64,000 bases of DNA, from contig JAPWDM010000065.1 in NCBI GenBank assembly GCA_035578155.1, positions 72,001 to 136,000 of the forward strand, in the 5' to 3' direction. A program made the translations under genes and the position numbers. Positions 11,131 through 62,085 of this stretch are shown in pieces. This DNA is from Brachynemurus nebulosus (lineage: Eukaryota > Arthropoda > Insecta > Neuroptera > Myrmeleontidae). The notes under the pieces were generated by a model. That model did no database searches. It was not told the origin of the DNA and saw only the letters and a list, made by a program, of their open reading frames with translations. Numbering within the stretch: the stretch's first letter is position 1; every line of letters starts with the position of its first letter.

Positions 11131-11460
11131 CCCCTGTCGCAGCATCTGCATAACATAGCGAATTTTCAAATATTGGGCACTGGCGGATCTCATCTAAGAC
11201 CTGTACCTATTTAAAATAGTTTAGCTTTCTAAGAGTAAAAGAATTTTTAAAATTGGCTGGGTAATTAGTTTTGGTATTTTTGGGGACCCAAGAACCCGAA
11301 CGGATTTTGTGCAGCATAGTTGTATCCATCTAAAATAATTTAATTCTCTAGCAGTGAGTTCGGTTCGGTAGCTTATTACTGGCGTTTTCGGATCTGCAAG
11401 ATCCCGGTGGACCTCATTAAAAAATCAGCTTAATCGTATATTCTAGGCGGACTTTATGTA

Positions 11461-11534
<74 letters not shown>

Positions 11535-11561
11535 AATCCGTTGTGTAGCATTTTACGCCGC
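11131..11561 (+). repeat. 'CCCCTGTCGCAGCA' repeat head followed by 120-bp family units
   Basis: The head CCCCTGTCGCAGCATCTGCA (11132) with TAACATAGCGAATTTTC recurs at 25999, 32627 and, inverted, near 45020. It is followed by degenerate units of the family arrayed at 16116 (TAGTTTAGCTTTCTAA, GGCGGATCTCAT). A (TA)n tract (11467-11530) interrupts it, and the composite U2/Utopia insertion starts at its right end. Confidence 0.7.
11467..11530. repeat. (TA)n microsatellite
   Basis: AT dinucleotide tract of about 64 bp. Confidence 0.97.
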
Positions 11562-11593
11562 ATTTGCATCTGCCGGACAGTTGTGGATCTCAG
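11562..11593. repeat. Left 32-bp target-site duplication
   Basis: Identical to 16084-16115; adjoins the 3' end of the full-length LINE. Confidence 0.88.
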
Positions 11594-11866
11594 ATTAAAT
11601 TCATTTATTATTATAAAATGATAAAATACAAAAATTATACAGTGGCTGAACTTAAATACTCAAACAAAATGTAGTATATAAAAAAAAAAAAGTTAAAATC
11701 GATAAAAAACAATATTAAAACTTACATACTAAAGAAAAAGATTAAAATTTACATTAAAAGAATAAAAGAGCAAACACAAACAGTCTATGAAGCTAACACT
11801 TTTTGGGGGGGTTGACGGCTCAGGTGTTCGTGCCGTCGATTACCATTGTGCTTGGCTGTCAGAGGG
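11594..11866 (-). other. 3' UTR of the Utopia-like LINE
   Basis: AT-rich. Its last 97 bases (11594-11690) match the truncated tail at 15953-16049 with about two substitutions. The 3' end reads ...AATTTAA followed by TCTG in both copies, which is U2 sequence at the old site and TSD at the new one. There is no poly(A) tail. Confidence 0.8.
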
Positions 11867-14800
11867 TCATTCCCAGTATTGCCTCTGTCCGGTCAGATGT
11901 TCTATATATATGTCGCGTGACCATCGGATCGTGTCCGAAACCATCAAACGTGCCATGGTCTGCGTGTATTTGTAGGCTATGCCCAGTGACTTTGTGACCC
12001 GGTAGTTCTGTGTAAGCCAAGCGCCGAGCGAGCCCACGACAAATGCATCCAATGAGACCCTGTAACCCTTTGCGGTAAGCTCGGCAGCAAGTGGGTTATA
12101 TTTTTCGAGCTTCTGCTGCCTAGCTGCCTCCAGGGCGTCCGGGGCACCCTCAAATGGAATGCATATGTCGATAATCTGTACCGACTTGTTAGTCTCGTCC
12201 AAGACCACCAAATCAGGGCGAAGGTTACTCTGTACGCCGGGCACTTGTCTATTGATGTTTAAGACTGCGCCCGGGGGTATGCGTGCTGCGCGAGCAAGGC
12301 GATCTTGTACGGCATTGTGCCGTTTTTGCCACGCTGCTGAATGGACAGTACAATGGTTAATGACGTGCGGCAGCGTCTCACTGACGTAGCCACAGCGTCG
12401 ACACCGCTTGTCACCGGCCCCGAATCGACGCGTACCATTTAATGGGACAACGCCGAGTCTGGCCCGGTGGACAAATCGATAGTCGCAAAACCTAGTGTAC
12501 CTCCCATTCAACAGGAAGTGGTTGCTCGCTTCCCTTTGGTGGGTACTAGTGTATACCTTTCCCTGATCTGGTTTCCTTAGCAGACTAGCAAGGTAGTGTG
12601 CTCGGACGCTTGCGCGTAGCACTCTCACTACCCGGGTCCTCGCCGTCTCCGGGACAATCACACGCTCCTGTGTTTGCCCAGGCATGCTGATTATTAAGGA
12701 CAGGTCACGCTTTTCCTGGCACCAGTGGAACTCTAGCCCTGTTCTGGTGTTCAGGCGGCGACAAGCATTCCTCGCCTGGGTCCAGAGGCTTGATATATCG
12801 CCGCCATCTCGGGCAAGGGGACCTTCCAGTGAGCCACTTAGGTATCTGGACATGATTTCCTCTGATGGATCGGCACCAATACGCCTCCTCACAACACGTT
12901 TCAAGCAGCACCAAGCCGTGTCCCTTACTATGTGATCTTTGCAGGACAGCAGTCTAAATGCGTGAACCACAGTGCTCACGTCCGCAGAATCGGCCAACGG
13001 CATAAGATTTGCTCCACCCTGGTGAGATGGTATATATAGAAGCTCAGGAGAGCCGCGTTGAGGCAGGTTCATCCATTTCTTGGCTAGTCTTTTGATCGTT
13101 TTGTCCGCGTCAGTCAATGGACCCTTGGCGACATTGCCGCCACGCAGAATAAAATCCAGCCGAGAAAGGATGAACATGTTCACCGCTTCGAGCTTTTGCC
13201 AGGGGGCGAGAAGAGAGTCATGTATCTTTTGTGCGTCCTCCTTAATGGCGCTAATGGCCTCAAGGGGAGTTTGAGATACACGGAATCCCGTAGGGACTCC
13301 TAGATGTTCATACTCCTCTCCGTCTCTTAATACCGTGAGCTTACCTCCTTGGATAGTGAACTCCGTGGGATAGACCGTTCGGCGGCGTCTGCAATCCACA
13401 TGGAGTGAGGCGCATTTTGGTGGTTGGAACTTTAGACCCATCCACTCAGCGGTTGATCCTACTGAGTCCAAAAGTTTCCTTAGGGACTCAGCATTTTTGG
13501 CGAGTAACACAACATCGTCGGCATACGCCAGTACCGAGAAATGATGGTCATGAAGTTTGTAGCCGTGGTCATCCGCCAAACCTAAGGCCACCCTGACAAG
13601 GGGCTCTATTGCCAAGTTAAAAATAATAGGACTCAGTGGACAACCTTGCTTTACCCCCGCACGAAGTGGAATCGGCTGAGTTTCCCCTGCCGATGTGCGA
13701 ATAGTGGTGGTAGAGTTGGGGTAAAGCTCAGCTATCACACTTCTCAACTTGCTGGGCATCTGCATCTCTCCCAATACCCGCCGGATGTGATGGTGGGGGA
13801 CAGAGCCGAAGGCATTGGCTAGGTCAAGCCACGCCAATGCTATCTCTCTGCCTTCACGGCGCGCGTCATCCAGTGCACTTTGGACCACGAAGTTATGCTC
13901 AAAGCAACCTTCGTACTCCAGAAATCCCTTCTGCACTGGTGAGATATTGTTTGAGAGTTTCGCCCAGCAGTTGACACGGTCGGCTATAACGCCGGCATAA
14001 AGTTTGGCAATAGTTCCTCCTAATGTCAGCGGTCTCCAGTTTGACAGATCATCCCTGCTACCCTTCTTATGCAATAGAACAGTGCGGGTGTCAGCCCAAG
14101 CCAGTGGTGTTTTTTCCTCACGGAAGCAGCGGTTGAAGATCTCAGTTAGGACTATACAGCCTGGGTCCAGCCGTTTCAGATACGAGTATCTTACTCCGTC
14201 TTTCCCCGGGGCAGTATTAGAGGTTTTAGCCAATCGCGCGCATACTGATTCTTTACTGATCGAGCCCAGTAGGAACGCATAGCGTTCATCTCTATCAGCT
14301 GCTCCGTTCTCACCAGGATTGAGTATCCGCCGAACCTCCTCAGGCATAGGTGTTTGAGCCTGGTTTTTGTCAGCGAATATCTCACGGAAGTGATTAAAGA
14401 TCGTTTCCGTGTCAATCTGGCAGAACTGTGAGCCACCTGGTGACAGTATTTGGTTGATGGCTTTCTTTTTATTGGTCCTATAGAACTTCTGGATCTTTCC
14501 CGCGTCCGCAGGGTCAAAGCGTGCACGTCGTTGACGATTCCTAGGACGGGGCCTATTGTTCGGGAATCGTTGCACGCCCTGATTTGGTCTTTCGGCCACA
14601 TGACTTGTACTGATAGACGCAAAGTCCGCAGTTATTGTAGCCACGGCAACCTCAAAGTCTTCCCAGTTGGTAGCGGTTCTTAGGAGTTCTAGCCACCGAC
14701 ACTGGTGTTCAGTCAATTGACTTTCCACCGGCGCGGGGGGAACCGGTTGATGATCTCGATGCTCGCCAGCTACATTCTCGATTACCACCGGGGCAGTATC

Positions 14801-15727
14801 GAGACTGTCGGAGGCGGGCTCTGGTCCGACTTGTGGGGACGCCGTAACTACTCTCTCGGTCATTTGGTCATGGGTAATGCCGTCGATCTCGTGAAGCCCA
14901 GCTCCTGATCTTAGTGGAGCGGGTGGATGGGGTGGTGATCCGTGGACTAGGTCCTCATGGTCAGAACCCTGTGGCAGGTCAACATCCGAGTTCACCGGCG
15001 CAATGCGACACGACCTTTCAGCTGCAGCACTGGGAACAGCCTCTGTGCCATTATCGGTTTTAGGGGGCGGGGCTGTGTCCGTAGGTGCGACGCTGGTGGT
15101 GGTGGTAGCGCTGGTGGTGGTGATGGCGCTGGCAGTGGTGGCGCTGGTGGTGGCGGCGCGGGTGGTAGTGGCGTTAGTTGCGGCCAGGGTTTCGGGAATA
15201 CGCCGCATTTTTCTTGGAGTCGCTGGTTGTGTGCTGGGCAGTGTCCTGGACTGGGACACCGATCTCGTCCGCGGACGCCTTATTGGTGGTGACTCAGGTT
15301 CAGTGGTCTCCGGGGCAGCCTCTTCATTGGCGGCAGCCAACCTAGATGCTGTTGGTTGGCTGCTAACTGGTGGTCGTTGCGTGGGTGCGGCTCTCTTTTT
15401 GGTGGTTGTGGCTGCTGCCGCACCCTCTTTATGCGTACGATAATGAATTTTTAATTTTTTCAGATTTTCATCCCGGTGACCACAGTCACCACACTCGAAC
15501 ACAACTATCGGTGTCCCGTGCTGTTTCTTGATATGTTTCTTGAGGTCGGAGTGGCTCTTATATTTAAAGATGTTGCGAAGAGCGCCACCCCGACCCTGGA
15601 AGTCCAAATAGTTATCGGGGACATCTGCCCAGCACTTTGGGCACTGGAATTCGGCGGGGAACGGGAATGGGATAGTAACATTAACCGTTCCCGCAGCCTC
15701 GCCATCCACTTCCTCCTCCTCTTCCAT
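11867..15727 (-). CDS. Utopia-like (U2-targeting, RLE-type) LINE polyprotein, intact
   Basis: Single 1286-residue ORF without internal stops. Order: two C2H2-type fingers (C29/C32...H65/H70 and C79/C82...H95/H99); a long Thr/Ala/Pro-rich linker; reverse transcriptase from about residue 490 (APGKDG near 505, LAYADDVVLL near 735); a CCHC knuckle (CRRC near 1109, then H...C); and a restriction-like endonuclease (RPDLVV, IIDICIPFE, KLEKY, residues about 1170-1215). This is the R2/NeSL-type architecture that nicks a specific site and primes reverse transcription there. U2 fragments at its 5' side identify it with the Utopia group of U2 snRNA-gene LINEs. Start: ATG at 15725-15727 gives MEEEEEVDGE and precedes the first finger. 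The ORF is much more GC-rich than its flanks. An intact ORF plus identical TSDs suggest recent activity. Confidence 0.9.
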   Translation of the reverse strand: MEEEEEVDGEAAGTVNVTIPFPFPAEFQCPKCWADVPDNYLDFQGRGGALRNIFKYKSHSDLKKHIKKQHGTPIVVFECGDCGHRDENLKKLKIHYRTHKEGAAAATTTKKRAAPTQRPPVSSQPTASRLAAANEEAAPETTEPESPPIRRPRTRSVSQSRTLPSTQPATPRKMRRIPETLAATNATTTRAATTSATTASAITTTSATTTTSVAPTDTAPPPKTDNGTEAVPSAAAERSCRIAPVNSDVDLPQGSDHEDLVHGSPPHPPAPLRSGAGLHEIDGITHDQMTERVVTASPQVGPEPASDSLDTAPVVIENVAGEHRDHQPVPPAPVESQLTEHQCRWLELLRTATNWEDFEVAVATITADFASISTSHVAERPNQGVQRFPNNRPRPRNRQRRARFDPADAGKIQKFYRTNKKKAINQILSPGGSQFCQIDTETIFNHFREIFADKNQAQTPMPEEVRRILNPGENGAADRDERYAFLLGSISKESVCARLAKTSNTAPGKDGVRYSYLKRLDPGCIVLTEIFNRCFREEKTPLAWADTRTVLLHKKGSRDDLSNWRPLTLGGTIAKLYAGVIADRVNCWAKLSNNISPVQKGFLEYEGCFEHNFVVQSALDDARREGREIALAWLDLANAFGSVPHHHIRRVLGEMQMPSKLRSVIAELYPNSTTTIRTSAGETQPIPLRAGVKQGCPLSPIIFNLAIEPLVRVALGLADDHGYKLHDHHFSVLAYADDVVLLAKNAESLRKLLDSVGSTAEWMGLKFQPPKCASLHVDCRRRRTVYPTEFTIQGGKLTVLRDGEEYEHLGVPTGFRVSQTPLEAISAIKEDAQKIHDSLLAPWQKLEAVNMFILSRLDFILRGGNVAKGPLTDADKTIKRLAKKWMNLPQRGSPELLYIPSHQGGANLMPLADSADVSTVVHAFRLLSCKDHIVRDTAWCCLKRVVRRRIGADPSEEIMSRYLSGSLEGPLARDGGDISSLWTQARNACRRLNTRTGLEFHWCQEKRDLSLIISMPGQTQERVIVPETARTRVVRVLRASVRAHYLASLLRKPDQGKVYTSTHQREASNHFLLNGRYTRFCDYRFVHRARLGVVPLNGTRRFGAGDKRCRRCGYVSETLPHVINHCTVHSAAWQKRHNAVQDRLARAARIPPGAVLNINRQVPGVQSNLRPDLVVLDETNKSVQIIDICIPFEGAPDALEAARQQKLEKYNPLAAELTAKGYRVSLDAFVVGSLGAWLTQNYRVTKSLGIAYKYTQTMARLMVSDTIRWSRDIYIEHLTGQRQYWE

Positions 15728-15932
15728 TTAATGTGTCACAATTGGTGGGTGTCACGATAAGTAGTGTTGTCACAATCGGTGGTAGATGGCGGGTCCCTAG
15801 GGACCCCTTATCGTCATGACTGTTTGTAGTTCATCTCGACCCTGGCTTTGCTGGCTTTTTACAATATTTGAACACTTTTTCAGCACTTTTTTCCACTTTT
15901 CACTTTTTTCTTGAGCACTTTAACTTCAAAAG
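15728..15932 (-). other. 5' UTR of the Utopia-like LINE
   Basis: About 200 bp between U2 nt 59 and the ATG. It contains GGGTCCCTAGGGACCC (15795-15810), a perfect 16-bp palindrome that could fold in the RNA, and repeated CACTTTTTTC-like tracts. Confidence 0.65.
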
Positions 15933-15952
15933 ATTAAGCTAATAAGAACAGA
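15933..15952 (-). pseudogene. U2 snRNA fragment, nt 40-59
   Basis: The reverse complement TCTGTTCTTATTAGCTTAAT matches U2 snRNA nt 40-59 with about one difference. It is best explained as a 20-bp target duplication made when the full-length LINE entered a U2 gene. Confidence 0.8.
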
Positions 15953-16049
15953 TTAAATTCATTTATTATTATAAAATGATAAGATACAAAAATTATACAA
16001 TGGCTGAACTTAAATACTCAAACAAAATGTAGTATATAAAAAAAAGCTA
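15953..16049 (-). mobile_element. Severely 5'-truncated Utopia-like copy (3' tail only)
   Basis: 97 bp nearly identical to 11594-11690, the 3' end of the full-length element. It sits between U2 nt 36 and nt 40, so it marks the exact LINE insertion site at the branch-point-pairing region of U2. Confidence 0.85.
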
Positions 16050-16085
16050 TACACTTTGATCTTAGCCATAGGGCCGAGAAGCGAT
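16050..16085 (-). pseudogene. U2 snRNA fragment, nt 1-36
   Basis: The reverse complement begins ATCGCTTCTCGGCC and runs through GGCTAAGATCAAAGTGTA, the invariant 5' end of U2 snRNA. It stops inside the GTAGTA branch-point recognition sequence. No upstream snRNA promoter is seen: the flank is the repeat-derived TSD, so this is not a functional gene. Confidence 0.9.
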
Positions 16086-16115
16086 TTGCATCTGCCGGAC
16101 AGTTGTGGATCTCAG
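16084..16115. repeat. Right 32-bp target-site duplication
   Basis: Identical to 11562-11593; two bases may be shared with the U2 5' end. Confidence 0.85.
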
Positions 16116-16860
16116 TAATAGTTTATCTCGGTAATAGTAAAAAAAATTTCAAAATCGGTCAGTTATTTTATTTTTGACACTTTTAGGTCCCACTGACGCT
16201 GTCGGACCTTACATAACGTAATCTATATCTATTTAAAACAGTTTAGCTCTCTAATAGTGAAAAAATTTTCAAAATCGGTCGGTTAGTTTATTTTTACCAC
16301 TTTGAGTCCCATGGACCCTGGCGAACCCTGCATAACGTAATCTATATCTATCTAAAATAGTTTAGCTCCCTAACAGTGAAAAAATTTTCAAAATCGGTTG
16401 GTTAGTTTATTTTTGACACTTTTGGATCCTATGGACCCTGGCAGACCTTACATAGCGTAATCTATGTATATTTATCTAAAATAGTTTAGCTCTGTAACAG
16501 TGAAAAAATTTTCAAAATCGGTCGGTTATTTTATTTTTAACACTTTAGGGTCCCATGGACCCTGGCGGACCTTATATAATGTAATCTATATCTATCGAAA
16601 AAGTAGTTTAGTAGTAATTTATGGCAGTCCGTAAGGTTCTTGCGGACATCATTTAATTAATTAATTCAAATACTTTAATTTACTAACTGTGAAAAAATTT
16701 TTAAAATCGATTGGGTAATTAATTTTTGGCCTTTTTAGGTCCCGAAAACCTTGACGGATCTCACATAAAATACCTTAAATTCATTAAAATTGTTTAACTT
16801 TCTAACATTAATAATTATTAGTGAAAAAATTTTCAAAATCGATTCATTTAAAATTTTTTT
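16116..16860 (+). repeat. 120-bp tandem repeat array
   Basis: Units carrying TAGTTTAGCTCTCTAACAG, AAAATTTTCAAAATCGGT and CCATGGACCCTGGCGGACC recur about every 120 bp (AATCTATATCTAT near 16221, 16340, 16460, 16580). Two more diverged units follow to 16860. Single relatives lie at 11165-11440 and, inverted, at 44880-45000. Confidence 0.85.
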
Positions 16861-33074: not shown

Positions 33075-34816
33075 TCGTCATATTTAACAACTAAAATGGA
33101 CACATTCCTGTTTTCTTCCCCTTTTTTATTTATAGAGCCTCTTTTTTATTTAAAAAATGCATTTGAATTTGGACTTGGGCCATGTATTTGGCTGTTATTT
33201 TATTTCCGTTAGTCATATATTTCGTTTTAGCTTTTTTGGAAGTTGGAATTTTATTTCTACAACATACTCAGCACTTTCACCGTTAGGTGAAGCTCCAATA
33301 ATTGGATAGTCTCTATTAAGCATTATTCCAGCGTTCCGTATTTTAATATTTTTTTTCTTTTCTACAATTTGTAGAACTTGCTTTTCTAATTTCCTTCCTC
33401 TTTCCATTGCAGCTGTATCCTTCAGTTTAGCTCCCATTATCATTTCCACTAACACCCCACCATACGTCTTGCAGTGAGCTGCGTCATATGCTTTTGAGGC
33501 AGTCACTCGAGCACAACGTAATTCATGCCACAAAAGACAGTTTGCCTGCTCAACTGTCGCTCTAAAAGCATCCTCACATGATTCATTTGTTAAATTTTCA
33601 TAACAAAATTTGAAAAATTCATCTATACTTATGTTATTTTTGTCTAATATTTTTACACTTAAATAATTTATCGATAATTTTTCAACAGGACTAAACTTTT
33701 TGTAATATTTTGTAAGCTGACCATCAATGTGACCAATTTCCAAGCCGTAGGTCAGTACTTTCGCCAAAAAATTGATATTTGTCATCGTTGACGTCGACTG
33801 CCATGTCTTTAGCTCTGATAAACTTTAAGCTACTGCCTACTGAAGAAATTTTAAACTTCTTCCAGTAACATTTTATACTTGTTAATGGGGGTCCTCGCTT
33901 CTTCTCTGCAGTCAAGCCAGAAATGCAATTGCAAGTTTACATCCTCCTGTAAAAAAAACCAATTTAAATATAAATTTGTTTTGAATACTCTTTGGTGAAA
34001 CAGTTAGCTAATTATCCTTCTACTATGGTATTAGCCAAAACTGTTACTGATATGTATACAACTGTATGTCTTAAGATGAGTATCATTTAATTATATGAGA
34101 ATACTGCGCTTCACTACCTATTCATTTTCGGGTAATAGTAGAAATTTATGAATATTAAATAATACAAATCCTCCTGACTTTTTTTTTATAGTACGTTACT
34201 TTGTTTATAACATCGCCTCTTAAGCTATTTTTATTCACGACCTCATTTTTCATCACAACCTCAAGTATTAGATATAGGAATGGATACAGGCAACTCCAAA
34301 CATATAAATAAATTTATAAATTATTTATATTTCGTTGAACAATTTATTTGAGTTAAATTTTCACGACCTCAGCATTTTGTTTCGCGTTCCATTTGCTGTT
34401 GTAATCCACAGTTTATTTGGGATCGTGATCCATAGTTGAAGAAGCGCTAATTATATAGTATTGGAGAGTTATTTACCTAAATGTGCAGTACAGCCTTCAC
34501 ATTGAATTGAAACAACTATTTCTTTTTTTTCATCGCATACTGCTGTGACATTATAAGCTTTTTGCTTTACGTTGTGCTCTGGAGTGATTTTGGCTTTCAC
34601 CCTACATAAAAATGCATCACTTCTTAGCTGAACATAACCAATTGCGTTGTCTCCGTAAGATTCTCGTTCGGATCTAAAAGTAATGGGTATTAAATGAAAT
34701 AGAAATTTGAAATTTTCATTTTTAAATTAAAAAAAAAACATGTAGGTAGTTTCAAAAGTAATATGTAAGCTTAAAATTGTAACTAAAAAAAAAAACATTT
34801 AAGTTATACAAATAAA

Positions 34817-50116: not shown

Positions 50117-53100
50117 GACTTTTACGCCAACCTGGCGCTCACTACTCAGTAGGACAGTACTGGGTAACATTCACCTATACCGGCATTATGCAAGGTATTA
50201 GGCTCTGTGGAAGGGTAATGTGCCAAACCAATCCGTAAAAGTACCGTAGTACATTCACGGACGGGTTCGTCACATCACTCCCTATATTGTTGTTATTGCT
50301 ACTTGAAACGAGGTGTTATTCGTCTATTTTGGTGTACACTGGGTCGTACGGCGAGACTTTTGTGGGAGCGTAGATGTTGGCTCAATGACAGAGGGCTGTG
50401 AAAGCCTAGTTCGTTTTCGTGTCCTCAGATGGTAGGTAGGAGTAGGGACAGAGGGAAGGGAAAGGACTGTTTGTGTTTGTGTGTGTGTTTGTGTATGTGT
50501 GTGGATGTGTCTTTCTATTTTACGTTTCTTGGTGTAGATGTTTTCTGGTTCATCAAATTGCTCATTAAGATCGGGTGTTCCTGGAACTGCGCGTTTAGAT
50601 GGTACAGAGGTTGACGGACCTTGTGTGTTATTGAGTTGGGGAGGATTGTGCACCAGAGCGGTAACAGTGACAGTGCGGCAGTTGTTCGATCCCCCCTCTC
50701 CATCAGACGAATCTGGATCTGTATGTGTGTTAAGTGTTTGTCTTTCAGTGTTAGTGTATTGTGTGTTTATGTATGTGTGTTGTGTGTCAGTAGGATGAGT
50801 GTCAGTGTATTGTTCGCTCACTGTAGATGGCTCAGATGGAGTAGAAGCAGGTCTTGTGCTTTCACATATCGCAGTCGGATTCGTATTACTGAGGAACTTC
50901 CGTACTATACGACACGTATTTATGATCACTGCCTTTTGCATAGTGACATATGTGTATTTTGGGAGACCCAAGAGGCTCAAACTATTATGTAGTGTGTGTG
51001 GAATGACCCCGGTGGCACTGAGCACTATTGGAACGATGTGGACATGTTCCATTCGCCATTGTTGTTTTATTTCGGCTGCGAGGTCAGTGTATTTATCCAA
51101 TTTAACTGCGTGTGTTTTTTGTAAGTTGTGTGTATTTGGAACCGCAATATCGATCAGATAGGTTGTCTTAGTGTTTTTCATTACGAAGGTGATATCTGGT
51201 CGATTATGATTTATGGTCTTATCTGTAATAATCGACCGATCCCAGTAAAGTCTACAGGAGTCATTCTCCGCTACTACTTTTGGTGTGAGCTTGTAGTAAG
51301 GTGTTTTATCGGTTATAAGGTGGTGCTTAACCGCTAGTTTCTGGTATATGATTTTGCCAACCTGGTCGTGACGGTGTTTGTATTCGGACTGAGCGAGCTT
51401 AGTACAGGCAGCTGTGATGTGTTGGATCGTTTCAGGTTTGGAATGGCATCTCCGGCATGAGTCAGATGTTATTGACGAGTCACGAAGTATGTATTTTGAG
51501 TAATTCTTTGTATGAATTACTTGATCTTGTATAGCTAGCATGAATCCTTCAGTCTCCGGGAAAAGACTTCCTTGACTCAACCAGGCGTGCGACGCTGCTT
51601 TGTCGACGTTACTCTGATTAAGATCATGTGGATGTCTCCCATGTAAAGGCTTCCGAATCCATTACTGAATTTTGTCCTCCTTCGTGACCAAACGGCAAAA
51701 ACTATCTGGCATTTCTGTGTGTGAGAGGTTTAATGGTGTGTATGCCTTGTCGGCTTGGATTATTACATTGTGTAAGTGTGATGTGTGTGTTTTGGTGTAA
51801 AAGTATTCTCGCAAGTTATGAACCTGTTTATTATGCGTGTTCCTTATGTCTATAAGACCTCGACCCCCTTCGGCTCTTGGCAGCGTCAATCGTTCTATCG
51901 CTGCTTTGGGATGATGAATTCTGTATTTGGTCATAAGGACGCGGGTCTTGATCTCGATGTTTGTCAAGTCCGTAGGCGTCCATTTGATTACCCCAAATGA
52001 GTATGTTAGCACCGGAATTGCGTAGGTGTTAATTGCTTTGATGGTTTTTTTTCCATCAAGGTGGGTGCTCAGTAATCTCCGTACACGCGTTAGGTATTGC
52101 TGCATCAGGTGTTGTTTTACAGCGCTGTGATCTATACGTTCGTCCTGATTGAATCCGAGATACCGGTACGACTCTCCCTCGTCCATGGGCTGCATAACAG
52201 ACTCTGGTTTGAGCTCGAATGCGACCGCATCTCGTTTTCCTCCAGAACGACATTGTGTTCGACATTTATCGATTCCGAACTCCATACAGAGGTCTCGCGA
52301 AACCTCGTTGGAAAGTCCCAGCAGCTGCTGTAATTGATGTTTAGTAGCTGCATAGATCTTAATATCATCCATGTACATGAGATGTGAAATGGTATGGCGT
52401 GAATTCGTTTGCGTACCTACATTGTAACCGTATTTGGTTTCATTTAACAGGCGAGAAAGTGGATTGATTGCGAGACAAAACCATAATGGACTCAATGAGT
52501 CGCCTTGGAATATGCCGCGTCTTACTTGAATAAGGTCGCTTGTTGTTTTTTCATTACCAATACTCAAATGTAAGGTCGTTCGCCAGTCGGACATGATCGT
52601 TCCAAGGAAATTCACGATACTTGGGTGTATTTTGTACAGCTCCAATACTCTCCGTAACCAGGAGTGCGGGACCGAATCAAATGCCTTTTTATAATCAATA
52701 AACGCTGTGTACAGGTTACGTTTTCTCCCTTTCGCTTGTTCCAGTACTACGGAGTCAATCAGAAGCTGCTCTTTGCAGCCTTGTGACCTCTTTCGACATC
52801 CCTTTTGTTCTTCTGTCAGTATGGTGTTAATCTGACAATGCTCATTGATCTTTTCTGCCAGACAGGACGTCAAAATCTTATACACTGTAGGCAAGCAGGT
52901 GATAGGCCTATAATTCGCAGGATTTTTTGTATCACTGTTTTTAGATTTCATGTATGTGATACCCTGCGTTAGGAACTTCGGTGTCAGGTTTGGTGTTCTT
53001 ATAAATAGTGTAAAGTGTTCAGCGAGATACTTGTGTGTTGATGTAAAGTGTTTGAGCCAGTAGTTTTGTATGTTGTCGATGCCAGGTGCCTTCCAGTTAT

Positions 53101-54604
53101 GCGATCTCTGTAAAGCTCTGGAGACGTCCTCTGTAGTAATGTCCGTATAGGGCATCTCCGGAAGATGTTCGTTATTCCTGTACTCTGTATCGATCCAGCT
53201 GGCTTTGTCATTATGGTCAATGGTGTTGGACCATATATTCGCCCAGAAACTATGGAGTGCGTTCTTCTCCGGTAGACCATTACTGTCAGTTACCGTGTTC
53301 GTTAGAGACTGATAAAACCGTCTCTCGTTTCTGCTGAACGCTTGGTTGTGTCGTCTGCGTTCAGTACTGGTCTTATATCTTCGTAAGCGCTTCGCTAGTG
53401 CTGTTAATTTTTGGTGAAGCGTATCTCTGATCTCTGTGAGTGTTTTATTGGGTTCCTCGTATTGTGTGTGTACTGTGTGTTTGCGTAATATGTCGTGTAT
53501 GTATTTGTTGAGCCGTTTGGACCTCGTACCCTGTTGGTATTGGGTGATCCTGCCGAGGTTGCATCGGATGTTGCTGATGCGTTTATTCAATCGTGTTTCC
53601 CAGGCAGGAGTTTTGTGTTCCTTCGAGTTGTGCGCTACAGGTGGTGTTACATCGGACCCGTTACAACGTATAGCTGCAACGGCTCCACAATAGATAGCTG
53701 TGTGTAACTCGATAAAATTGTCACATGTTTCCAAGTGTTTAGGCAGTATTGTATTGTTCAATATCTCAACGATCTCAGCCAATCTACGTGAGGTGTGTTG
53801 TTTAGGCAACAAGTACCTATGTGTGGGGTCCGTCCCTTCAAATTCAGTAAGCGCTGTGTTAAATTCCAGTTCGATCTTTTGCAGTAGGGTGTCATTTACT
53901 GCTGTCTCATGGTGGTCAGGCTCATTCTCGACAAGTTGTTGAGTGTCGTTTTGTGTGGGGCTCTCCATTTCTGGTCGGCCGTCGTCCTGACTTTCTTCAT
54001 TTTGAGCAAATTGATGTGCGACTTGTGTTTTAATGGTGTTTATGAGGGAGGAAGGGATGAGGTTATTGGTAAAAATGACACGTTTTTGGTCTGCCAGTCT
54101 CTGTTCAGTAACGCGACTTAGGTGAGGGTAGGTGTGCGCGAACTCTTGATGTAATTTTGTACGGTAACCAGTTTTGTCCGTTTCAAGTCTAGTAACTTTG
54201 AAGTATGTGCGTACGATGAATTCATTCAGTTCATCTGTCCATTGCATACGCACACGCTTCTTACCAGCTTTAGTGGTCCCCAAAGGATGCTCCGAGGAAA
54301 CACTTAAATTCGGCTGAGCCAAAGGTGTTGGGGGCTCCGTAAGTAGGGCAGTAGCATTTTGGCTGAAGGTGTTGTTACAGCTGACAGGTGGCTGCCTAAA
54401 ACCCAGCCTGTCGTCACCGCGACCTAAGCTGTCACATTCAGTGGTGACCCTGATGCGCCCGGTCGCTCCACCGGCAGCGGCACTTTTCCGAGGCTTTTTC
54501 TTCAATCTCTCCATCCTAATGGGTTGTCCTTTTAGTCGCCTTTTACGACAAGCAGGACTTACTGTGGGGAAATTCTGCAAAGTGAAGCCCCCACCCACAG
54601 GGCG

Positions 54605-59202: not shown

Positions 59203-59275
59203 CGATCGATGGTGTAATGGATAGCACACCTGGCTAGTTACCAGGAGATCCTGGGTTCGATTCCGGGCCGATCCG
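59203..59275 (+). tRNA. tRNA-like sequence (anticodon loop CTAGTTA, AGT)
   Basis: D-arm TGGTGTAATGGATAGCAC, perfect 5-bp anticodon stem CCTGG/CCAGG around CTAGTTA (anticodon AGT, Thr), and T-arm GGGTTCGATTCCGGG followed by GGATAATTTTTT, a Pol III-type T run. The acceptor stem pairs at 5 of 7 positions and the T stem has one mismatch, so it may be a pseudo-tRNA or the head of a SINE. A and B boxes look usable. Confidence 0.55.
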
Positions 59276-61429: not shown

Positions 61430-62085
61430 CTATTTGGTCTGAATAAATATATCGAAACATTTTCGATAACGGCCTTGATCTAAACTGCAATCTTTTTCAA
61501 TAACCAATAAACCGTATTGTTCTCGCCAACAAAGGGTGCAAATCGATTTAAAGATATCGAAAGGTATATCGCCGCAAACATGGTCGTTAAATATGTGCAA
61601 TAAATTTTTTAGATCTTGTTTAAATAAAAATATTAAATTTGCATTGTCTCTAAAATTAGTTGTTTTGGTATGAAACTGTAAGTTTCCGCTAGATAAAAAA
61701 CTGAAATATCTTTATGTCGACCCATACAAAAATATGCCCGTATGTTATTTTGCTTATTCGTTGCAACATCATCGAATATAAAAACCGAGTTATTTTTAGC
61801 ATTTTCGGGTGCTATAACGTCTTCGTTATTGGAAAAAGTAAAATATCTCAAACCTCTAATTGGTTTAAGAACACGCTTCAAATATTCATATTTCGGTTTG
61901 GGTGTTCCATTTGGGTGTTCTAATAAATTTAACAAAACGCTAGTCTTACCACACCTCGATGGACCAACTATTAGGCACCTTATATTATTCGGTAACAAGG
62001 GGCCATGCTTTTTGTCACCGGATGTGGGTGATATAAAATCCATGTTTTCGATTGGTAGTTCTACACCTTGCTTTATAAAACGCAA
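61430..62085 (-). pseudogene. Polinton/adintovirus-like packaging ATPase, one frameshift
   Basis: ATG at 62083-62085. The P-loop GPSRCGKTS is near residues 42-50, Walker B VFIFDDV near 101-107, then the family signatures YFCMGRHK and a Thr-Tyr..IPKQL block. After residue 150 the frame breaks (apparent 2-base insertion near 61650); the remaining C-terminal part stays open in another frame to TAG at 61430-61432. This A32/FtsK-type ATPase would pump DNA into capsids in Polinton-like viruses of insects. It is an old, inactive genomic copy. Confidence 0.8.

Follow-up and report, generated by a model that had tools for sequence, protein, structure and literature searches.

The window analyzed here is a 64,000-nucleotide stretch of DNA (C113:72001-136000) from a 960-Mb assembly in 138 contigs, and within it, at 11562-16115, lies an insertion whose parts follow one another on the minus strand in a curious order: a 32-bp repeat, U2 snRNA nt 1-36, the four bases TAGC, the tail of a LINE, U2 nt 40-59, a full-length LINE, and then, the 32-bp repeat once more. 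A sequence-only reading of this stretch had described nearly the same order and had taken the whole for a U2-LINE chimera that was retrotransposed as one RNA starting at U2 nt 1. That order stands, with corrections: a filler, some ambiguity at the joints, and one mismatch in U2 40-59. The two direct repeats (5' copy, 16084-16115; 3' copy, 11562-11593) are indeed identical over all 32 bp. U2 nt 1-36 (16085-16050), as claimed, matches the genome's own U2 gene at 100%, being identical to both of the U2 genes on contig C122. The filler TAGC (16046-16049) separates U2 nt 36 from the LINE 3' tail fragment (15953-16045), which, when TCTG is counted in, matches the tail at 11591-11687 over the expected 97 bp at 97.9% identity, TCTG itself being U2's. 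There follows U2 nt 40-59 (15933-15952), immediately 5' of the full-length LINE (11594-15932); compared with the genome's U2 gene, nt 39-59 match here with one mismatch (15953-15933). U2 nt 37-38 are absent from the chimera, A39 can be assigned to U2 or to the LINE, and the 5' joint can be placed only to within 2 nt, since the first two bases of U2 (AT) are also the last two of the 32-mer. In a 5-kb scan, the Rfam U2 model (RF00004) matches 15999-16085 on the minus strand (E 6.8e-05, 36.8 bits; the curated cut-off is 46), and the whole-window scan at the curated cut-off does not list this piece.

The LINE carries an intact ORF, as had been read from the sequence (15727-11867, minus strand; 1286 aa, zero internal stops), and an AATAAA stands at its 3' end (11604-11609, minus strand). 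Pfam finds RVT_1 in the protein (residues 553-786, E 3.9e-28) and has zero matches to a Myb domain at E up to 1; an N-terminal zinc finger (residue 79), a C-terminal CCHC (1109), and an RPD..D endonuclease motif (1170) were located by pattern only. The best PDB matches are R2 proteins (7.8e-68). A database search gave 403 homologues, with 37-60% identity among the 120 listed; among the matches listed, the best homologue is unnamed, and the named ones come from insects, turtles, nematodes, and arachnids. Utopia, as described by Kojima and Jurka (2015, PMC4640811), belongs to the NeSL clade and comprises RLE LINEs that target U2 snRNA genes, and lack of Myb has been used to separate Utopia from R2 (PMC13188248). 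Given the zinc finger, the lack of Myb, the RLE motif, and the U2 site, we assign the window LINE by these described features to the Utopia type, as the sequence-only reading did. Utopia elements, in the text that describes them, share with it a single ORF with N-terminal zinc finger, RT, C-terminal zinc finger, and PD..D endonuclease; the site at which downstream U2 begins (nt 39 in human, nt 40 here); and a 20-bp duplication, as in reptile families. As here, target specificity is weakened in some Utopia families, and tandem copies occur in Nasonia (PMC4640811).

A genome search with the LINE 3' end gave 30 matches, including both tails in the window (all 30 candidates were scored), and a search with the 5' region gave three (3 of 3 scored), which are the window, L018, and L012. 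Judged from alignment coordinates, the other copies are incomplete; in tblastn, the ORF is unbroken in none of 14 loci, and it is intact in the window copy. L018 and L019 seem to be parts of a single copy, ~8 kb apart.

Are the 32-bp repeats a target-site duplication at all? Joining the window's two flanks and comparing them with the set of fetched loci yielded the empty sites that the sequence-only reading had proposed to look for. The 32-mer, with 2 or 3 mismatches, occurs once in each of three paralogous repeats—L041, L025, and L017 (= L007)—and each of these runs continuously through the junction at 85-87% identity. Because the 32-mer is single there, we take the two copies in the window as a true target-site duplication, and what it encloses is the 5' part of an snRNA, in sense, 5' of a LINE. 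One could still imagine that no retrotransposition took place, either because the repeats are neighboring units of a satellite, a worry already voiced in the sequence-only reading, or because a U2 gene and its LINE were moved as DNA, and it is true that the 32-mer belongs to an interspersed repeat adjoining 120-bp satellite units. Yet three paralogous copies with a single 32-mer and both flanks continuous rule out neighboring satellite units and refute this idea for the window; the five chimeras checked also lack the flank with the U2 promoter. We give the idea hardly any chance of being right. At the point where the LINE entered, the three paralogues read TTATCTGAGATCC, so that the window target shares TATCTG with the GTATCTG of U2. 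The window's own 5' flank is ATTACTG, against TTATCTG in the paralogues.

U2 genes were located by pattern and DNA searches; a U2 gene as the query gave 14 matches from 13 candidates (13 of 13 scored): two identical genes on C122, seven genes on C1 at 79-83% identity, and five LINE-attached fragments. This query misses short or diverged pieces, such as those of L049, L055, and L056. The two gene classes (L035-L043) differ in stem-loop I, and the two C122 genes lie amid repeats. An exact 15-mer from the start of U2, ATCGCTTCTCGGCYC, has 13 matches in the 960-Mb assembly (a control pattern has 0); these are the nine U2 genes and four copies of the LINE, a confinement that argues against chance as the reason for U2 at the start of the LINE. 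Eight of the nine genes have a TTAACTCTCA-like promoter element at -65 (exact in six, with two mismatches in two), and the copy that does not, L043, may be a pseudogene. The element is absent in the five chimeras checked (L049 left out). It had been allowed that genuine U2 genes might turn out to have the same flank as the window insertion; all nine have other upstream flanks, and a flank held in common with real U2 genes is ruled out by this comparison together with the missing -65 element. The claim that the insertion starts at U2 nt 1 without a U2 promoter flank thus holds. The same query found no U2 gene interrupted by a LINE, all nine copies being uninterrupted, and no U2 fragment beyond nt 59, when a gene cut at nt 39 should leave ~150 nt.

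The window's insertion is not alone. A U2 search of the fetched loci (U2 gene loci left out), with inspection, brought to light further insertions of the kind that had been anticipated, six in all, the window copy and five others; six cases instead of one strengthen the idea from which the analysis set out. The first U2 nucleotide is nt 1 in the window, L009, L010, and L056, nt 2 in L011, and probably nt 1 in the diverged L049; the last is nt 38, 37, 36, 33, 31, or 20, and the Utopia target is 39|40. That is, U2 1-36 of the window has as its counterparts U2 1-38 in L009, 1-37 followed by 23 additional bases in L010, 2-31 in L011 (2-34 with one mismatch), probably 1-33 in the older copy L049 (7-33 at 93%, preceded by ATCGC and a 7-base disruption), and 1-20 in L056 (with GG common to U2 and LINE), and the LINE is joined at six different points. 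Five of the six break points fall in nt 31-39, for which P is 1.8e-6 if break points are uniform over nt 15-193 and 0.0016 if they are uniform over nt 15-59, both being ranges set after seeing the data. All six U2 pieces share CCCTATGG with the two C122 genes, and none is of the type of the seven C1 genes; the probability of this is 1e-4 on the assumption that the nine genes count equally. We take matches of 12-13 nt to later parts of U2 in L053, L027, L021, and L016/L006 (E 0.58-2.3) as chance. RNA splicing at U2 36|GTATCT was considered as well and is ruled out, L009 keeping nt 37-38 and L010 keeping nt 37.

Rfam, applied to 33 loci, finds U2 as the sole RNA at LINE starts (L009, L010, and L012), a weak test, since it missed the U2 of L011, L049, and L056. 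Elsewhere in these loci, it finds 28S fragments upstream of L011 and, 1.2 kb away from L009, a tRNA. Matches that fall short of the curated cut-offs are to microRNA models (with MIR8007 in L026, 1e-9, and mir-5014 in L050, 2e-7, scoring best), SNORD75 in L014, and CrcZ in L024. L011 (C89:23500-29700; 518-1096, 1962-2014) lies ~40 bp behind a 28S rRNA fragment, and another LINE RT (26% identity) comes after it; it is a nested insertion in rDNA-like sequence.

U2 is found beside the LINE in other arrangements too. It precedes all three of the LINE 5' ends found, as nt 40-59 in the window and L018 and as nt 29-59 in L012, and the order of tail, U2 40-59, and LINE in L018 is the same as in the window. 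In L012, U2 29-50 stands before U2 29-59, and U2 31-44 stands before that, as if the enzyme had re-copied the U2 leader several times. The 20-mer of U2 40-59, searched with up to 2 mismatches, has 17 matches (control, 4), which are the nine U2 genes, L018, the window, L012, L055, L066/L067, and three others. At the opposite end of the LINE, two old copies, L055 and L067, have U2 40-58 after the LINE 3' end and then A's; the two have 74% identity over 175 bp and, by eye, different 3' flanks. The A-run of L055 begins 27 nt past AATAAA, within U2 sequence; L067 has its AATAAA changed, and the A-runs of both are short. Altogether, the LINE tail is joined to U2 nt 40 (= human 39) in the window, L018, L055, and L067; in no U2 gene of the assembly was a copy found. 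In the list of 17 further 3' ends, 14 terminate at TTTAA (or a variant of it) with 0-4 U2 bases (T, TC, TCT, TCTG), though the target may have supplied some of these bases. L013, L028, and L051 end earlier, and L012, L017, L025, L027, L052, and L057 have 3' ends of other kinds.

The sites that were entered vary a good deal. L020 has a duplication of ~133-137 bp (one mismatch), which far exceeds the 20 bp seen in U2, and its target is GTATCT; the flanks of L021 share a 37-bp run, and its target is TAGTATCT; the duplication of L015 is a 7-mer, with TATC. The duplications of L017 (a 7-mer) and L052 (tens of bp) lie at sites that are not U2-like, and L024, at another such site, has no recognizable duplication at its flanks. 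With some sites U2-like and those of L017, L024, and L052 not, the preference for U2-like targets, as judged from the flanks, is partial. A target-site duplication was looked for at the flanks of L009 and L010 and not found; the flanks of L056 share a 10-mer that lies off the joints, and L011 is without its 3' end. L013 and L051 have a common 3' flank (GCAACATTTCTTAAAAG), which means either that the same repeat was entered at the same base or that DNA was duplicated.

What kind of history leaves copies like these? The one that we think probable, reading it from sequence, is that transcription from the U2 start ran through Utopia copies residing in U2 genes and that the resulting RNA was then copied into other places. 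A Utopia-type LINE would once have lived in the U2 snRNA genes of this lineage, in residents that have presumably since vanished, its full-length insertions duplicating U2 nt 40-59 and its 5'-truncated insertions joining U2 at, or slightly upstream of, the cut 39|40. Pol II, starting at U2 +1 from what would be the U2 promoter, would have read through such resident copies—single, truncated, or tandem—to give an RNA of the form U2(1-x)-LINE-U2(40-58), perhaps with its poly(A) site at U2 nt 58. The LINE protein would have used such RNAs as templates for insertion at sites away from U2 genes, of which some resemble U2 (core TATCT), and an RNA copied to its end would give a new insertion that begins with U2 nt 1. 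Conversely, we infer from a start at U2 nt 1 without a promoter that it was an RNA end that was copied.

We favor resident copies as the sources because the break points lie mostly at or just upstream of 39|40, because U2 1-36 and 40-59 in the window are collinear and split by the LINE tail at the target, and because of the U2 flanks of L012, L018, L055, and L067. Also counted in their favor are the six U2 starts at nt 1 or 2 (in L049, a probable one), with the -65 element missing in the five checked; the U2-like targets (TTATCTG in the window's paralogues, GTATCT in L020, and the L021 site); and the C122 type of all six U2 pieces. The sequence-only reading had spelled out a history for the window in which a full-length copy entered a U2 gene, a truncated copy then entered the same site, and a transcript ending at the LINE 3' end was copied into its present place. 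Part of this survives: the collinear 1-36/40-59 is consistent with a U2 gene in which a truncated insertion lay 5' of a full-length one, and the truncated one presumably came second. However, the truncated-copy step could instead be a jump in one long co-transcript, and the transcript may run past the LINE into U2, as L055 and L067 suggest.

A rather different proposal is that the reverse transcriptase switches templates, leaving the LINE RNA internally and moving on to U2 snRNA, or to the U2 stretch of another co-transcript, which it copies to the 5' end; in the window, this would be a double jump, from LINE to LINE tail to U2. Any such jump would end at U2 nt 1, as observed, and it makes a U2-resident source unnecessary, none having been found in the U2-gene search. 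Precedent exists in published accounts of LINE-1 chimeras with U6, U5, U2, and other small RNAs, including U5 and U3 chimeras with internal switch points and also triple chimeras (PMC4476161, PMC13174262), and in L012, U2 29-50 was copied again. What template switching does not account for is the position of the break points at the DNA target 39|40, the collinear 1-36/40-59 of the window, the junction of LINE tail and U2 nt 40 that the window and L018 share, U2 40-58 behind the 3' ends of L055 and L067, or the restriction to the rarer U2 gene type. We consider it unlikely, if worth taking seriously. In between lies a co-transcript from a U2-resident full-length LINE, with the truncated chimeras made by a jump within that RNA from the LINE back to the U2 leader. 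Such a jump explains U2 beside both ends of dispersed copies and gives six different joints without six truncated sources, but its break points should spread over U2 1-59, and the clustering of five of the six in 31-39 (P 0.0016, as above) speaks against it; we find it improbable.

Resident copies as the sources have difficulties of their own. Transcripts from snRNA promoters are, in general, poor users of poly(A) signals. The hexamer of L067 is altered, and the runs of A are short. No LINE-interrupted U2 gene turned up beside the nine uninterrupted copies; the six joints are all different, no supposed source having two offspring; the break of L056, at U2 nt 20, is away from the target; and the U2 29-50 repeat of L012 is a place where the enzyme seems to jump within U2. 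Also to be counted against them are the targets of L017, L024, and L052, which are not U2-like; the window 5' flank ATTACTG; the lack of a duplication for L009 or L010; and the fact that snRNA template switching, internal switches included, is known from published chimeras (PMC4476161). If we let ourselves go a step further, the element might have neither a promoter of its own nor a full terminator, and its genomic RNA might be U2(1-59)-LINE-U2(40-58)-poly(A), started by the U2 promoter and ended by the LINE AATAAA ~27 nt on, inside U2. The flanks would then serve re-insertion into U2 genes and would occasionally carry U2 to U2-like sites. We put this forward tentatively and with more doubt than conviction.

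How does all of this compare with what is known? Unlike Utopia as described (PMC4640811), the dispersed copies here carry 5' U2 from nt 1, or 3' U2 40-58, at non-U2 sites, and a U2-resident copy was not found in this assembly. The text of the Utopia paper describes no dispersed copies starting at U2 nt 1 and does not deal with how the element is transcribed (PMC4640811). Chimeras of LINE-1 with U6, U5, U3, and U2, as they have been described (PMC4476161, PMC13174262), resemble ours in having the 5' part of an snRNA in sense on a mostly 5'-truncated LINE and in lying within a target-site duplication, which here has been established for the window only. They differ in that the snRNA here is that of the LINE's own target gene, with break points at the target site (PMC4476161, PMC13174262), and no other RNAs were seen fused here in the weak Rfam test.

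R2, too, is thought to be promoterless and to be co-transcribed with a host RNA gene, 28S (PMC4370867, PMC2718515). The joints of 5'-truncated R2 insertions in 28S DNA have microhomology, filler, and short upstream deletions (PMC2718515), and the joints here resemble them in these features and in lying mostly at the target or slightly upstream of it. R2 RNA, however, is freed by an HDV-like ribozyme (PMC4370867, PMC2718515). Rfam, run over 11400-16400 with E allowed up to 1, has no match to such a ribozyme, and the copies here retain the host leader. In the LINE-1 5' transduction that co-opted the RAP1GDS1 promoter, as is proposed here, an external promoter drives the LINE, and a leader is carried to new loci; that leader is spliced, whereas here, it would be the unspliced snRNA leader of the element's habitual target (PMC13174262). 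Chimeras of U2 and other snRNAs with LINE-1 have already been published (PMC13174262); for U2 fused to an RLE LINE, the titles and opening lines of abstracts of the papers listed from the open-licence literature gave no report.

If resident copies were indeed the sources, then copies beginning at U2 +1 would be a fossil record of RNAs from LINEs in snRNA genes, whose expression could be tested via capped ends, and they would suggest a route by which snRNA sequence is spread. They would also offer, besides template switching, a second reading of snRNA-LINE chimeras, in which a resident source is indicated when the break lies at the DNA site that the element itself targets.

The window holds a few other things that deserve mention. 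A second R2-like LINE lies at 50324-54598 on the minus strand, with RVT_1 in a 978-aa ORF followed by a 418-aa ORF that has no Pfam match. Virus-like fragments, of a Pox_A32-like ATPase (61633-62085) and a YqaJ-like exonuclease (33213-33785), are found on the same strand, and a tRNA-like sequence (score 38.7) is found at 59203-59275 on the plus strand.
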